A stretch of DNA of 46,183 nt from Acidobacteriota bacterium (GTDB taxonomy: Bacteria > Acidobacteriota > Vicinamibacteria > Vicinamibacterales > UBA2999), in contig QHWQ01000327.1 in the NCBI GenBank assembly GCA_003222635.1, positions 1 to 46,183 on the forward strand. The letters run 5' to 3'. Shown here one piece after another: positions 35,083 through 41,465 of the stretch (positions are counted from its first letter, which is position 1; every line of letters starts with the position of its first letter). A program made the position numbers and the translations under genes. The notes below the pieces were generated by a model. That model did no database searches. It had not been told where the DNA came from and saw only the letters and a program-made list of their open reading frames with translations.

Positions 35083-36663
35083 TCAGGTCCGCTTCTGAAT
35101 CTTCGCCCACGAATCCTTGAGCGTGACCGTCCGGTTGAAGACCGGCGTGCCGGCTCGCGAATCCGGATCCACGCAGAAGTATCCCTGCCGCTCGAATTGA
35201 CAGCGGTCGCCCGCCGGCGCTGACGCGAGCGACGGCTCGACCTTCGCGCCGGTGACGCGTTCGAGCGAATCCGGATTCAGGTCTTCGAGCGGATCGCGTC
35301 CGCCCTCGCCCGGATCTTCCGATGTGAACAACCGGTCGTAGAGGCGCACTTCGGCGTCAACCGCGTGATCGGCGGAGACCCAGTGGATCGTTCCCTTGAC
35401 GCGGCGCGACGCCGTCGATCCGTTCAGCGATTCGGGATCGTAGGTGCAGCGAAGCTCGGTGATCGTTCCCGACGCATCGTGCACGGCGCGCTCGCATTTC
35501 AGGATGTAGGCATAGCGCAGCCGCACTTCGTTGCCCGGTGAGAGCCGGAAGAATTTCTTCGGCGGCGTCTCCATGAAGTCGTCCTGCTCGATGTAGAGCA
35601 CGCGCGAGAACGGGATGCGGCGCGAGCCGGCGTTCGGATCCTCGGGGTTGTTGATCGCCTCGACGTCTTCCGTCCGGCCCTCCGCATAGTTCTCGATGAC
35701 GACCTTCAGCGGACGCAGGACGGCCATCCGGCGCCAGGCCATTTTGTTGAGAACCTCGCGTACGGAGAAGTCGAACATCGCCACATCAACCACGCTGTTG
35801 GCCTTGGCTACCCCGATCCGCTTGACGAAGTCGCGCACCGCCTCCGGCGGGACGCCGCGCCGGCGCAACCCTGACTCGATCTGCCGCGGGTGATAGATGC
35901 CGAGCGCGTCGAGATACCAGTCATAGAGCGGCCGGTGATCTTCGTACTCGAGCGTGCACAACGAGTGCGTCACGCCTTCAATCGAGTCCGACTGCCCGTG
36001 CGCCCAGTCGTACATCGGATAGATGCACCACGTATCGCCCGTCCGCTGGTGCGGCGTCTTGCGAATGCGATACATGACCGGGTCGCGCAGGTTGACGTTG
36101 CCGGAGGCCATGTCGATCTTGGCGCGCAGCGTTTTCGCGCCATCGTCGAACTCGCCGGCACGCATGCGCCGGAAGAGATCGAGGCTCTCCTCACTCGGCC
36201 GGTTGCGATACGGGCTTTCGCGGCCGGGCTCGGTCAGCGTGCCGCGGTAGTCGCGCATCTCGTCTGCCGTGAGCTCGTCGACGTAGGCCTTCCCCGCGCG
36301 AATCAGCTGCTCGGCCCATTGATAGAGCTGCTCGAAGTAGTCCGACGCGTGATACAGCCGATCGTCCCAGTCGAAGCCGAGCCAGCGGATGTCCTCCATG
36401 ATCTGATCGACGTATTCCTGCGTCTCCTTGACCGGGTTGGTGTCGTCGAGCCGCAGGTTGCAGGCGCCGCCGAACTCGGTGGCGACTCCGAAGTCGAGGC
36501 AGATCGCCTTGGCGTGGCCGATGTGCAGGTACCCGTTCGGTTCCGGCGGAAAACGCGTGTGCACACGGCCGCCGTGCTTGCCGGTGCGCATGTCTTCCGC
36601 GACGATTTCGCGAACGAAATCAAGCGGGGCGACGGGTGCCGAGGTCCCCGCGTCGGAGTCCAT
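35083..36663 (-). CDS. glnS: Glutaminyl-tRNA synthetase lacking the KMSKS-loop segment
   Basis: Class I synthetase that charges tRNA-Gln with glutamine. The HIGH motif is intact ([20 protein letters not shown]), as are [37 protein letters not shown] and [20 protein letters not shown], and the beta-barrel anticodon-binding part extends to the end. At about residue 260 (near 35883) HPRQIE passes directly to [20 protein letters not shown]. The family has about 35 more residues here, including the VMSKRKL (KMSKS) catalytic loop and the WDDPRMPT segment. The frame is kept, so a 526-residue protein is still encoded, but it should be inactive. Assembly error is likely unless another glnS or the amidotransferase route exists. 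rmuC is just upstream in the same direction. Confidence 0.9.
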
Positions 36664-36673
36664 CCAACAATTA

Positions 36674-37813
36674 TTACAGAGGCTCGACGTCTTCTGCGGT
36701 TGCGTCCTCGGGGAGTCCCATCAGGTTCATCTGCTTCAGGACCCGCGGGATGGTGTCAATCGATTCGGCGGGCGGAATCTCCTCGGCGGTCGTCACCTTC
36801 AGGTCCTTCATGCGGCGCGCGGTGACGAGGACGCGCGATTCGAGCGAACCGGCGGCCTGGTTGTAGGACTGGACGGCGCCATCCAGCCGTTTGCGGACTT
36901 CGTTCAGGTGTCCCGCGAAGATCGCAAGGCGCTCGTAGAGCTCGCGCCCGAGCGCCGCGACCTCCCGGAAATTCTCGGTGAGCGCCTCCTGCCGCCACGA
37001 GTGCGCCACGGTCGTCAGCAGCGCGATCAGCGTGATCGGGCTCGCCAGCAGCACGCGCTGTGTGAGGCCGTGCTCGATGAGGCTCAAATCGTTCTGCAGC
37101 GCCGCACTGAACAGCGTTTCGCCGGGCAGGAACATCACGACGAACTCGGGCGACTGCGCGAGCGCCTCCCAGTACGCCTTGCTCCCCAGCTTGTCCATGT
37201 GATCGCGCACCTGGCGGGCGTGCGCCTGCAGCTTGATCGCGCGCATCTCATCGTCGGCCGCCGCCTGCGCGTCGAGAAACGCCTCGAGCGGCGCCTTCGC
37301 ATCGACGACGATCTGCTTGCCGCCGGGGACATGCACGACCAGATCGGGACGAAGGCGCCCGTTCTCGCCCTGCAGCGACGGCTGCTCGTCGAAGTCGCAG
37401 CGCGGCAGCATCCCCGCGATCTCGACGACGCGGCGAAGCTGCATTTCGCCCCAGCGGCCGCGGACCGCGGGCGTGCGCAGCGCGCGCGACAGCGTCTCGG
37501 CGCTCGAGCTGAGCGCGCTCACTTTTTCCGTCAGCCGCGCGTAGGCATCGATCCGCTGATGCTCGGCCTGCGCGAGCTTGACGTCCACCTGCTTGAGCGT
37601 GTCCGCAATAGGCTGCACGAGACCGTCGAACGCTTGTTGACGTGAATCAAGAGAATCGAGGAAGGCCGTGCGATTGTTGTGCAGCGCGTCCGCGGCGAGC
37701 GACTGAAACGCCTCGCGCATGGTGCCGAGCGCGTCGCGTTCGCGCTGGACCTGCGCTTCGAGCCATTCGTTGTCGCGTCTGGCCGCCGCCAGGAAGTACG
37801 CCAGCACCGCCAC
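36674..37813 (-). CDS. rmuC: DNA recombination protein RmuC
   Basis: RmuC-family protein, thought to limit DNA inversions and to have a nuclease-like fold. After a membrane-anchor-like N-terminus ([15 protein letters not shown]) comes a coiled coil, then the conserved core: [52 protein letters not shown] and [20 protein letters not shown]. The last holds conserved residues of the PD-(D/E)XK-like fold. The start is uncertain: GTG 37813 is used, but the anchor helix seems to begin upstream ([13 protein letters not shown]) without a normal start codon before a TAA. A small indel near 37835 could hide the true start. It is followed after 10 bp by glnS. Confidence 0.88.
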
Positions 37814-37954
37814 GCCGAGCCCCGCGGCGATGCTTTATGAGGAGGACCATGGGAGCCGGCTCGAAGTGTAACAGCACTGACCGATCTGTAAGCAGCGCTG
37901 CCCGTCCTACACGAAGACCGGCGAATTTGCGGGCGAATTCGCCCACGCAGCACG

Positions 37955-39010
37955 GTGCGTCCGTTGCACCCGGACGCGGCCGTGGTCAAACGAGCCGTCC
38001 CGGGAGAACCGTATTCCCTCGATGATGGCCTGGGCACCCGCAGGATAGAGAGCGACGGACGAACCTATACCGAAGTCCTCGAACTGGCGGCAGCCCTCGC
38101 CTCACAGCCGGTTGTCGAGCAAGCGATTCGCGGCCGTGCGTCGCGGTACGCCGACCTCGACGTCCGCACGTTCTCGCCGGTTCGCCGCATCGATCGCAGC
38201 GGCGGGGCTCTGCACGTCATCAGCGAGATGCCGTCGGGCGTCCGCCTCTCACATCTCCTCGCGCATCTGGAATCGACAGGCGAGGTCGCCCCCGAGTCCG
38301 CGATGCTCGAGCTCGCCTCGCTCGTCATCAATGCCGTGGCCTCGCTGCACGCCTGGCCGGGCGGTCTCGCGCACGGCGCCATCAGTCCTGGCCACGTGCT
38401 CATCACCAACGACGGCCGCGTGATGCTGACCGACTGTGTCTTCGGCGCCGGCCTCGAGGTGCTGCAGCGCAACCGCGAGTCGCTGTGGAAGGAATTCGGG
38501 CTGGCGATGCCGCCCTCGGCGAATCTTGCGCGCTTCGATCAGCAGGCCGACGTCACGCAGATGGGGGCGGTGATCCTCTCCATCATCCTGCAGCGGCCGA
38601 TGCGCGCGCATGAATATCCGCGGGGGGTGAGCGATCTGGTCGTCACCGCGACCGAATCGTCACACGTGCCGGGCTCGCCGGGCGCCGCCTCGGCGCTTCG
38701 CATGTGGCTGCAGGAAGCACTGCAGATCCATCCGCGGCTCGCCTTCCGCTCCGCCGTGGAAGCGCAGCGATCGTTTGCCGACATCAACAACCGTCCGGGC
38801 GCGCGCCGTGCGGGCGCGATGGCGCTGCAGGTGCTGCTGCAGACAACCTGTGGCGAACCGCAGGCCACGCAGAAGCCGGTCGTGCTGAATACGCCGATGC
38901 AGGCGCCGGCGCCGCAGCCGACACCCGCGACGCCTCAGCCACCCGCGACCGAGCCGAAGCCGAACAGTCCGTTCGACTCGATCCTCAGGTCAGTTTTCCC
39001 GAAACACTGA
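37955..39010 (+). CDS. Ser/Thr kinase-like pseudokinase
   Basis: A 351-residue protein with the C-lobe pattern of a Hanks-type kinase: VINAVASLHAWPGGLAHGAI, SPGHVLITNDGRVMLTD, ADVTQMGAVILSIILQRP. The catalytic loop HRDLKPxN reads HGAISPGHV, so the catalytic Asp and the Asn are gone, and DFG reads TDC. No glycine loop or VAIK lysine is seen in the short N-lobe. It is probably a non-catalytic scaffold or binding protein. The C-terminus is a Pro/Ala/Gln-rich tail. GTG 37955 is used; an upstream ATG 37849 with GAGGAGG in a different frame and a Cys-rich reading frame suggest the true N-terminus may extend further and be interrupted. It converges with the receptor gene, 4 bp apart. Confidence 0.7.
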   Translation: MRPLHPDAAVVKRAVPGEPYSLDDGLGTRRIESDGRTYTEVLELAAALASQPVVEQAIRGRASRYADLDVRTFSPVRRIDRSGGALHVISEMPSGVRLSHLLAHLESTGEVAPESAMLELASLVINAVASLHAWPGGLAHGAISPGHVLITNDGRVMLTDCVFGAGLEVLQRNRESLWKEFGLAMPPSANLARFDQQADVTQMGAVILSIILQRPMRAHEYPRGVSDLVVTATESSHVPGSPGAASALRMWLQEALQIHPRLAFRSAVEAQRSFADINNRPGARRAGAMALQVLLQTTCGEPQATQKPVVLNTPMQAPAPQPTPATPQPPATEPKPNSPFDSILRSVFPKH

Positions 39011-39014
39011 ACGA

Positions 39015-41465
39015 TCAGAAGGCGATGCGTGCGGCGAGCTGCATGACACGGCCATTGAGCTGTCGTGTCCGCTGGCCGAACTGCGGATTCGGCACGAGCA
39101 CAGTCGGCGCGAGTCCCGTGGACTGTATGTTGTTCACGGCGGTGTAATTCGGCCGGTTCGTCAGGTTGAACGCTTCCCAGATGAGTGACCACTGACCGGT
39201 CGAGCCGACGTGGAACCGCCGCGCGATGCGCGGATCCAACGATGCCTGATGCGGCAGCCGGTACTGATTCCACGTGGTGCCGGGCGCGAGGTCGTTGAAC
39301 GCATTGAAATCGCCGTTGATATCGCCGTTCACGTACGCGCTGTACGGGTTGCCGGTGTGCCACCGGGAGACCAGGCCGTATTCCCAATCTTTCAGCAGCC
39401 GCTTGCTCAACCCGTGCTTGTCCACGGCGAGGAGCGAGGTGTCGTACATTGCGGAGATGACGAGCTGCTGGTGCTGGTCGTTGTTGCCCGGGTAGCGCGT
39501 CTGCAGCGTCGCGCCGTCGATGGCAAGCGTGCGCCGCGCGCCGGCGTCGCCGAACACCATGCCGATCGGCTGCTGCGGCGTTTCGTCGGACCGCGAGAGC
39601 GTGTACGCGATTGTGTAGAACAGCTGCTGCAGAACGCGCGCGCGTGCGTGAAGCGTCACACCGTTGTAGATCGATTCCCCGGTGCTTTGGAACGAGACGA
39701 CGCGCGTCGGCAGCGGCACGAACGCGCGCCCGATGTTGACGTCGACGGCACGCGGCAGCCGCTCGCCCCGCGCGAACAGGTAATCGATCCCAAGCGAGCC
39801 CGCCCGGTATTTCTCCACTTCCCAGCCGGCCGACGCCTGGTGCACCCGTGCCGCGTTGAACGTCGGATCGATAGTGGTGGGGAATGGGAACGAATGTAGC
39901 GCGGCAATCACGGTGGGGGTCGATCCGTAGAACAACCCGTACGCCGCGCGGAATACACTCTTCCGCTCGCCCGGCGCGTATGCCATGCCGACCCGTGGGG
40001 CCCAGTTGTTCAGATTGAGCGGCATCGCCTTCTCGAAGTCCTGCGCGTCGTACCGAAGTCCGAGGTCGATGCTGAGCGCGGCCGTGGCTCGCCACGCGTC
40101 CTCGAAGAACGCGCCGTACTGAGTGAGGTCCGCGTTCATCGACACGGGGAAGAGGCTGTCGATCGAGAATTGCCCGCTGTTTCGATCTCTCAGCACGTCC
40201 GCGCCGGCCTTGAACGAGTGGCCGCCGGCGATCCACGACAGCGCATCGCCGAACTGCATGCGATCGGTCACAAACTCGTGGGGACCGTACAGGTTCGCCT
40301 GCGCCGCAGCCTCGTCGCGATTCCGCGCGACCTGCATGCGCGCGTCGTTGACCAACCAGCCGCCGATGCCGCTCTCCAGCGAACCCGCGATAGACCGGTT
40401 CCGCAACAGCGACGGGGCGCTCGCACTATCGAGCACTTCGCCGTCGTACTGCTGGTTCATGTAGCGCAGCATCAGATGCTGTCCGGCGAACGCGTGGTCC
40501 GTGCGCGCGACCAGCAGATTCTGATCTTGATCCGCGGGCGCGGTCGTCGATCGGCGTAGACCGTCGTAGCTGACGAAGAAGAAGTTGTGTTCCTTTGAGA
40601 TGGGACCGCCCAGCGTCGCGCCGAACTGGTTGTTCCGATACGGTGTGGTTTCGAGGCCAGCCCTCTCATCGATGGTTCGTTCGGCGTTGAGGGCGCGATC
40701 GCCGAAGAACTCGTACGCGGATCCGCGGAGGCTGTTGCCGCCCGACCGCGTGACGATGTTGAAGGTCGACCCCGCCGCGCGGCCGACGTCCGCCGGCGCG
40801 CCGTTGGTTTCGACGCGGAATCCCTCGATGGATCCCTCGCTCACCTGGTAGGGCACGCGCGTCGGTCCCTCGAGGCCGATCGGTTCGCCCGTGAGGCTGC
40901 TCGTGTGATCGAAGCCATCGATGACGAAGCGATTCTGCGCGCTCGGCAGGTTCATCACGCTGAGGCCGCCGGTGGCGGCATCCTCGGAGATCGCCGGCGT
41001 GAGCTCCGCGAGGCTTGGATAGCGCCGCCCGAGGACCGGCAGATCCTGCGCTTCGGTTTCCGCGACGATGGCGCTCGCGTGCGTGCGGGCGGACTCCGCA
41101 ATCGGCGGATACGGATTCAGCGCAATCGTCTCCGGCAGCGGCGCGTGGCGCAGCGGCAGCTCGATCTGCAGGCGTTGCGCCGGCACGAGGACGATGTCGT
41201 CCTGACGACGGCCGGCGAACCCGTCGTGTTCGACGGTGACTTGATAGCGGCCCGCCGCAACGGCAGGGAACGCAAAGCGGCCGTGATCGTCGCTGCGCGT
41301 CTGGCGGTCGACGCCCGTGTCGGCGTTGGTCAGCGTGACGCTGGCGTTGCCGAGGACTTCACCTGTATCGGAAGCGACGCGTCCCCAGATCTCTCCGGCG
41401 CCACTCTGTGCGTATGCCGGCGCGCAACTGAACAGTGCGACGAGAAACAGCAGTGCGGTAACCAC
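39015..41465 (-). CDS. TonB-dependent receptor with carboxypeptidase-regulatory-like domain (Oar-like)
   Basis: Outer-membrane transporter or surface protein, 816 residues. A signal peptide (MVTALLFLVALFSCAPAYAQ) precedes a carboxypeptidase-regulatory-like beta domain (about 23-105: GRVASDTGEVLGNASVTLTN, GRFAFPAVAAGRYQVTVEHD). The plug region holds FVIDGFDHTSSLTGEPIG and AGSTFNIVTRSGGNSLRG, characteristic of acidobacterial Oar-like receptors. The beta-barrel ends in MQLAARIAF with terminal Phe. It is at the short end of the family; two places in the barrel (after SIDSL, and after AALHSF) look compressed, but the region is too variable to be sure. The ligand is unknown. Confidence 0.87.
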   Translation of the reverse strand: MVTALLFLVALFSCAPAYAQSGAGEIWGRVASDTGEVLGNASVTLTNADTGVDRQTRSDDHGRFAFPAVAAGRYQVTVEHDGFAGRRQDDIVLVPAQRLQIELPLRHAPLPETIALNPYPPIAESARTHASAIVAETEAQDLPVLGRRYPSLAELTPAISEDAATGGLSVMNLPSAQNRFVIDGFDHTSSLTGEPIGLEGPTRVPYQVSEGSIEGFRVETNGAPADVGRAAGSTFNIVTRSGGNSLRGSAYEFFGDRALNAERTIDERAGLETTPYRNNQFGATLGGPISKEHNFFFVSYDGLRRSTTAPADQDQNLLVARTDHAFAGQHLMLRYMNQQYDGEVLDSASAPSLLRNRSIAGSLESGIGGWLVNDARMQVARNRDEAAAQANLYGPHEFVTDRMQFGDALSWIAGGHSFKAGADVLRDRNSGQFSIDSLFPVSMNADLTQYGAFFEDAWRATAALSIDLGLRYDAQDFEKAMPLNLNNWAPRVGMAYAPGERKSVFRAAYGLFYGSTPTVIAALHSFPFPTTIDPTFNAARVHQASAGWEVEKYRAGSLGIDYLFARGERLPRAVDVNIGRAFVPLPTRVVSFQSTGESIYNGVTLHARARVLQQLFYTIAYTLSRSDETPQQPIGMVFGDAGARRTLAIDGATLQTRYPGNNDQHQQLVISAMYDTSLLAVDKHGLSKRLLKDWEYGLVSRWHTGNPYSAYVNGDINGDFNAFNDLAPGTTWNQYRLPHQASLDPRIARRFHVGSTGQWSLIWEAFNLTNRPNYTAVNNIQSTGLAPTVLVPNPQFGQRTRQLNGRVMQLAARIAF

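Follow-up and report, generated by a model that had tools for sequence, protein, structure and literature searches.

The window analysed here is a stretch of 46,183 nucleotides from an Acidobacteriota bacterium of the order Vicinamibacterales. Its plus-strand open reading frame at 37955-39010, which was confirmed and encodes a protein of 351 residues, raises the question of what a kinase-like protein does when its catalytic motifs are changed. The original prediction described it as a kinase fold with lost catalytic residues, kept by selection in a non-catalytic binding role. We conclude, with a probability of about 70%, that the window protein is a catalytically dead, order-specific pseudokinase serving as a cytosolic protein-binding module.

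The fold was examined first with single-sequence searches and then with profiles. No Pfam model matched the window protein, even at an E-value of 10. In NCBIfam only weak kinase matches were obtained. The best of them was the MAD6 defence kinase (NF047741, 4.2e-5), and the score of 22.2 bits against a cut-off of 460 bits places the protein outside that family. A phmmer search of the PDB matched PAK4 at 1.4e-4 over residues 83-222, with HGAISPGHV lying over the HRD loop and LTDCVFG over LSDFGFC. A profile built from 30 relatives was aligned by hhalign with eight canonical kinases from the same genome. The probability was 98.8 and the E-value 4.4e-17, with columns 15-261 set against columns 10-262; the Gly loop was only partly aligned. 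Judged by this alignment, the match to kinases is not a chance one. When the family profile was searched against the PDB, the top match was PknB (1.4e-10), followed by PknA, StkP and the PAKs, and 39 distinct sequences were obtained at E 1e-5. Both profile comparisons agree on the register, in which Leu42 takes the site of the beta3 Lys, Glu40 lies two residues before it and Arg61 takes the site of the alphaC Glu. At E 0.1 the Pfam Pkinase model recognised six of the 30 members, the window protein not being one of them. Since the homology spans both lobes, the aligned sequences indicate that the protein is a member of the bacterial Ser/Thr kinase superfamily. AlphaFold2, given the window protein and one relative, returned a pLDDT of 39.0 for the full length and 35.5 for the domain. 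Models at this level are useless, and the statements on pocket geometry below are therefore read from the alignments.

The family is largely confined to one order. A profile search of 162 genomes of the order gave a match at E 1e-25 in 83 of them and none at that threshold in the other 79, many of which are incomplete. Among the 100 better genomes (completeness of 90% or more, contamination of 5% or less), 59 matched and 41 did not. In a sample of 247 genomes from the phylum, 14 matched at E 1e-15. Eleven of these, including that of the window, belong to the same order and matched at 1e-60 or better; the three from outside it gave 6e-19, 2e-16 and 9e-16. Intact HRD and DFG motifs were seen in two of these three (L082 and L084) and in one further kinase outside the family (L060). 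Another (L059) carries HGD and DFG, and a regular expression found nothing in the third match from outside the order (L083) or in L061. Homologues with both motifs intact, which would have spoken for local errors or recent decay, were thus found only outside the family. One long-form query found no relative in viral_contigs, and genome_contigs held one locus (L039), with the gene order of G002:C77. The search of the order listed 113 places. Residues were counted in 111 members from 109 loci; the window's own protein and the G381 member were left out.

The register clarifies what has happened to the active site (Table 1). The loop HGAISPGHV had been correctly picked out as the catalytic loop, and its residues 140-148 align with HRDxKPxN. 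The ATP-binding lysine is missing as claimed, the beta3 site being L42. The reading of TDC as a lost DFG was out of register, and T159-D160-C161-V162 lies over L-D-F-G. Only the Phe and Gly of this motif are changed, and the Asp stays. The relatives repeat this pattern. The beta3 site never holds Lys (Leu 101, Phe 7, Thr 2 and Val 1 of 111) or Arg (0/111), and the residue two positions before it is Glu in 92, Gln in 11 and Asp in 6 of the 111. Glu is absent from the alphaC site in every relative, Arg is found there in 97/111, and the beta3 Glu occurs together with the alphaC Arg in 80/111. At the HRD motif, the Arg site is Gly in 108/111, and the Asp site never holds Asp (Ala 75, Leu 12, Thr 10, Ser 5, Cys 4, Val 3, Asn 1, Gln 1). 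The catalytic-loop Asn is likewise missing from all 111, with Arg in 99, His in 11 and Ala in 1. The DFG Asp site remains acidic in 110/111 (Glu 74, Asp 36), the exception being Ala. The replacements thus form a largely constant set, with ExL on beta3, Arg on alphaC, HG..P..[R/H] for the catalytic loop and an acid for the DFG Asp. Paired across the Asn and DFG Asp sites, the residues are Arg-Glu in 74, Arg-Asp in 25, His-Asp in 10, His-Ala in 1 and Ala-Asp in 1. The G381 relative, the 112th, has the same pattern with HGSLAPER and VEHVL. The APE Glu column holds Glu in 2/111. Strongly conserved family columns include W178, W251, H140, D199, D24, G27, G95, R29 and R97. The altered residues are therefore conserved in homologues, as the original prediction would have it. 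The pocket looks like a fixed rewiring rather than the product of drift or random decay, and by these counts catalysis is an ancient loss common to relatives across the order.

Table 1. Positions of the pseudokinase gene, its altered motifs and nearby elements in the window
Feature	Position	Strand	Basis or remark
rmuC, divergent neighbour anchoring the conserved locus (context only)	36674..37813	-	PF02646; synteny
CTGTAA, right half of the TTACAG...TGTAA inverted repeat	37886..37891	+	the other five short-clade loci have the full repeat upstream
Upstream DNA element GGTGCGNNCGTTGCA	37954..37968	+	exact at the locus in 5/6 short-clade genomes
Pseudokinase gene	37982..39010	+	probable start GTG 37982; alternative GTG 37955 in the same ORF
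beta3 motif E40-V41-L42 replacing A-x-K (Lys to Leu, Ala to Glu)	38072..38080	+	alignments, family counts
alphaC Glu position, Arg61	38135..38137	+	alignments, family counts
Catalytic loop HGAISPGHV (H140-V148) replacing HRDxKPxN	38372..38398	+	PAK4 and profile alignments
T159-D160-C161-V162 at the DFG motif, Asp retained	38429..38440	+	aligned with L-D-F-G
Conserved activation-segment equivalent, W178 to D199	38486..38551	+	Trp 104/111, Asp (DxW-type) 108/111
Pro-rich linker, residues 305-338	38867..38968	+	11 Pro in 34 residues; fast-evolving
C-terminal peptide PFDSILRSVFPKH	38969..39007	+	kept in the closest ortholog; dN/dS 0.13 over 14 codons

In active kinases, the metal ion is bound by the Asn of the catalytic loop together with the Asp of DFG. 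Given these positions, Arg or His in place of the former Asn would probably pair with the retained Asp or Glu, replacing the metal ion and fixing the pocket in one state. Canonical Mg-ATP binding would not be possible in a pocket altered in this way. A different explanation is a pocket repurposed to bind some other nucleotide, a metabolite or, through H147 and D160, a transition metal. The protein would then be a sensor or an enzyme other than a kinase, in the manner of SelO and SidJ. The conservation of the changed residues agrees with this, namely an acid at the DFG site and Arg or His for the Asn (each 110/111) and the Glu of the ExL motif with the alphaC Arg (80/111), and the main text of a 2025 review describes such repurposing for other bacterial pseudokinases (PMC12599244). 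However, SelO and SidJ keep a Lys and a DFG-type Asp according to the same text, whereas the beta3 Lys is found in 0/111 relatives here, and a salt bridge would account for the charge pattern without any ligand. We regard a repurposed pocket as unlikely.

Most relatives are membrane proteins. With a transmembrane (TM) segment defined by a 19-residue hydropathy mean of at least 1.5 after the domain, 94/111 members have one after the linker, nine have none and eight are cut by contig ends. PEGA repeats were detected by Pfam in all three long members tested (L190, L127 and L129) and by a crude regular expression in 68/111. Lys and Arg together are commoner before the TM segment than after it in 74/94 and equally common on both sides in 12, which makes a cytosolic position of the pseudokinase side probable. 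The window protein is not of this long form. Its highest 19-residue hydropathy mean is 1.39 and lies inside the domain, and Pfam finds no PEGA repeat in it. One long paralog (G000:C173) is also carried by the window's genome. A quick maximum-likelihood tree was computed with 112 members and five kinases, and the family separates from the kinases in it (support 100). The window protein falls in a clade of six short proteins (support 100) with members from G002, G004, G006, G016 and G018, and this clade covers five genera. Neither a TM segment nor a PEGA domain is present in this clade, and all six members combine His at the Asn site with a DFG-site Asp. The same combination marks another clade, with five members, of which L165, L167, L174 and L179 have a TM segment and L168 is cut. 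On the tree, the His-Asp pairing amounts to three independent switches, two of which fit (sign test, median p 1). It is only suggestive, since the third His case (L211) has Ala. Co-variation between the Asn and DFG sites was dropped as a candidate, as the tree gave it just three independent pairs without significance. The base of the family forms a polytomy, to which a further member without a TM segment (L155) belongs, so that a soluble origin and a membrane-bound one would both fit the tree. The simpler reading is that the membrane part was lost in the short clade.

The genes around the pseudokinase, named by Pfam and NCBIfam, form a neighbourhood of which relatives have parts in common with the window. 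The divergent rmuC gene lies upstream with malQ and glnS beyond it, and DUF1015, a phosphoglycerate-dehydrogenase-like gene and serC lie downstream. At least one locus marker is present in the fetched stretch of 42/111 members (rmuC 22, malQ 15, DUF1015 28, dehydrogenase 21). An M23 gene follows on the same strand in 34 of the 38 conserved-locus members with at least 1.2 kb downstream or a match, the other four of the 42 having no room, and it lies within 100 bp of the pseudokinase, by ORF limits, in 17 of the 34. In one such neighbour Pfam found M23 (2e-28) and Csd3_N2 (8.7e-7), and we take an M23 endopeptidase with a Csd3 second domain to be MepM-like. This arrangement could mean that the pseudokinase regulates the M23 endopeptidase and hence peptidoglycan, as described for the pseudokinase domain of MviN. 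Against this, no M23 gene is found downstream in any of the 56 members elsewhere that have room (13 of those 69 had none), an M23 ortholog was not found at E 1e-60 in the window's genome or in G004, where the pseudokinase persists, and the short form has no membrane part to reach the periplasm. An M23 gene is present in 127/162 genomes, in one copy in 126 and in two in G040, and many of these have no pseudokinase. Because M23 is so common without the pseudokinase (127 versus 83 of the 162 genomes), the adjacency looks largely inherited. An obligate partnership was rejected, as each gene occurs without the other. Control of M23 by the window protein is improbable, and given its absence from the window's locus the endopeptidase offers no more than a weak lead.

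Several other features of the surroundings were recorded. A CarboxypepD_reg/TonB-receptor gene (39015-41465, minus strand, by Pfam) stands where many relatives have M23, and in G004 a gene in the same place is 30% identical to it; both lie on the strand opposite to the pseudokinase. At L124:10043-12088, a protein with HTH_25 and PD40 repeats is encoded between the pseudokinase and M23, and its neighbour cluster occurs in nine loci. The ORF in that place in L047 has an N-terminus that resembles, by eye, another degenerate kinase C-lobe. A nearby kinase partner was rejected, as the 1.28 Mb of flanks at 109 loci held one canonical kinase ORF at E 1e-25 with the eight-kinase model. The window's glnS gene (35083-36663, minus strand) is missing about 40 residues in frame, including MSKRKL, that are kept in two relatives. 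A search of the window's 88%-complete genome found no second, intact copy, and the gap may be either a real deletion or an assembly error.

Upstream of the gene, the element GGTGCGNNCGTTGCA occurs at 0 to 2 further exact places in each short-clade genome. The left half of the TTACAG...TGTAA inverted repeat was not found upstream of the window gene. The repeat was rejected as a mark of the short clade, as the same kind of pattern is present upstream of six long-form members (11/111 in total). The region between rmuC and the pseudokinase (37840-37970) is possibly a shared promoter or operator. The pseudokinase gene itself probably starts at the GTG at 37982 and not at that at 37955. In the alignment, the former was judged by eye to line up with the probable starts in the five remaining short members, and the letters at 37954-37968 are kept as DNA though at least one relative (L012) reads another frame there. 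The Pro-rich tail of the original prediction was found at residues 305-338. An end of the PFDSILRSVFPKH type has a loose likeness in L011, and there is no such end in L012, L013 or L014.

Selection was measured by the pairwise Nei-Gojobori method between the window gene and its 73% identical ortholog in G002. The dN/dS ratio is 0.153 over 345 codons. By part, it is 0.32 in the first 18 codons, 0.09 in the N-lobe, 0.12 in the C-lobe, 0.24 in residues 280-305, 0.34 in the Pro-rich linker (306-337) and 0.13 in the last 14 codons. These ratios are approximate since dS is near saturation (1.2 overall and 2.1 in the N-lobe). Six neighbour genes gave 0.13 (rmuC, serC) to 0.23 (glnS) by the same measure. 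By these ratios, the window pseudokinase is under purifying selection like its housekeeping neighbours. The kinase fold, the family-wide loss of catalytic residues and this constraint together make it a pseudokinase by the general definition, as far as sequences can tell. The non-catalytic role kept by selection is in this respect borne out, with the loss common to all 111 relatives and the ratio of 0.153. The original account is to be corrected for the metal-site Asp, which is kept, and the binding part of the role is our inference.

The same ratios bear on the possibility of a decaying remnant, that is, a truncated PEGA receptor becoming a pseudogene. The missing TM and PEGA part, the lack of an M23 neighbour or ortholog and the half of the upstream inverted repeat that was not found would suit such a history. 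This is very unlikely with a dN/dS of 0.15, an intact frame and a short form kept by a six-member clade across five genera. An active but divergent kinase that uses other residues could invoke the DFG Asp retained in the window protein, and it is hardly credible when the beta3 Lys, the HRD Asp and the catalytic Asn are absent from the window protein and from 111/111 relatives, the alphaC Glu is found in 0/111 and the Gly loop aligns only in part.

The closest known proteins by fold are the PknB-type Ser/Thr kinases, which the family matches in full-length profile alignment. PknB-type kinases carry PASTA repeats. The layout of kinase domain, linker, one TM segment and outside repeats is the same in the long relatives, with PEGA in the place of PASTA. 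In contrast to these kinases, the family has no beta3 Lys, HRD Asp, catalytic Asn or alphaC Glu, and the window form has no TM segment. Seven families of bacterial pseudokinases are counted in the main text of the 2025 review (PMC12599244). In ActPs3/MviN of actinobacteria, all catalytic motifs are degraded, recruitment is non-catalytic and the activation loop is deleted (PMC12599244, main text). The family is similar in its degraded motifs and in the TM segment C-terminal to the domain in most relatives. However, the activation segment is present and conserved in the family, and the window form is soluble. EssB/YukC has a degraded pseudokinase domain in a one-TM protein with a scaffolding role (PMC12599244, main text), which resembles the layout of most members of the family and its proposed role; the motifs differ from those in the table of the review. 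Neither an MviN chain nor an EssB/YukC chain was among the 39 PDB matches of the family profile at E 1e-5. GLW, CP1, ActPs2, DYD and DLHK are pseudokinases derived from bacterial Ser/Thr kinases in the same text. GLW pseudokinases have GLW for HRD and a poly-Leu stretch with Leu or Trp at beta3. The hydrophobic residue at the beta3 site is shared, but the window protein has HGA, and the HRD site of the family is HG followed mostly by Ala. CP1 is defined by a linked COG3899 domain, and the 351-residue window protein has no Pfam domain. ActPs2 has a beta3 Arg and HRD Asp changed to Asn, against Leu42 and Ala142 in the window and a beta3 Arg in 0/111 relatives. In DYD the beta3 Lys becomes Arg (Leu42 here), and DLHK retains the HRD Asp (Ala142 here). 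Of ActPs2, ActPs3, GLW, CP1, DYD and DLHK, compared through their descriptions in the main text of PMC12599244, none fits by motif. A search of that main text gave no match for Acidobacteri, PEGA or M23. No publication on an acidobacterial PEGA-linked pseudokinase family was found in the literature covered, most subscription journals lying outside its scope.

The preferred reading of the window protein, a dead pseudokinase that binds other proteins, can now be completed. As relatives across the order keep the same altered site, the protein probably works by binding partners and not by phosphorylation. This role is suggested by the retained fold, by the constraint and by analogy with known pseudokinases such as MviN and EssB. 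A partner would dock on the conserved surface of the activation segment (W178 to D199) and on the C-lobe. In the long relatives, a membrane anchor and periplasmic PEGA repeats would go with the same role. The window protein would act unanchored in the cytosol, its Pro-rich arm carrying a short peptide at the end. More tentatively, the whole may be an undescribed pseudokinase family of one order, in which the nucleotide site is now fixed and charge-inverted and governs partner binding. With Arg or His for the metal-binding Asn next to the retained acid, Mg would be replaced by a cation of the protein itself or, in the clades with His and Asp, by a transition metal that it binds, and one clade would have freed the module from a membrane receptor into the cytosol.

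Bacterial pseudokinases have been little studied. More than a hundred members of this family occur in a single order, and it is mostly invisible to the Pfam kinase model. Its conserved and changed pocket leads to a sharp structural prediction, and the retention of a kinase fold without catalysis could be studied in it as a compact test case.
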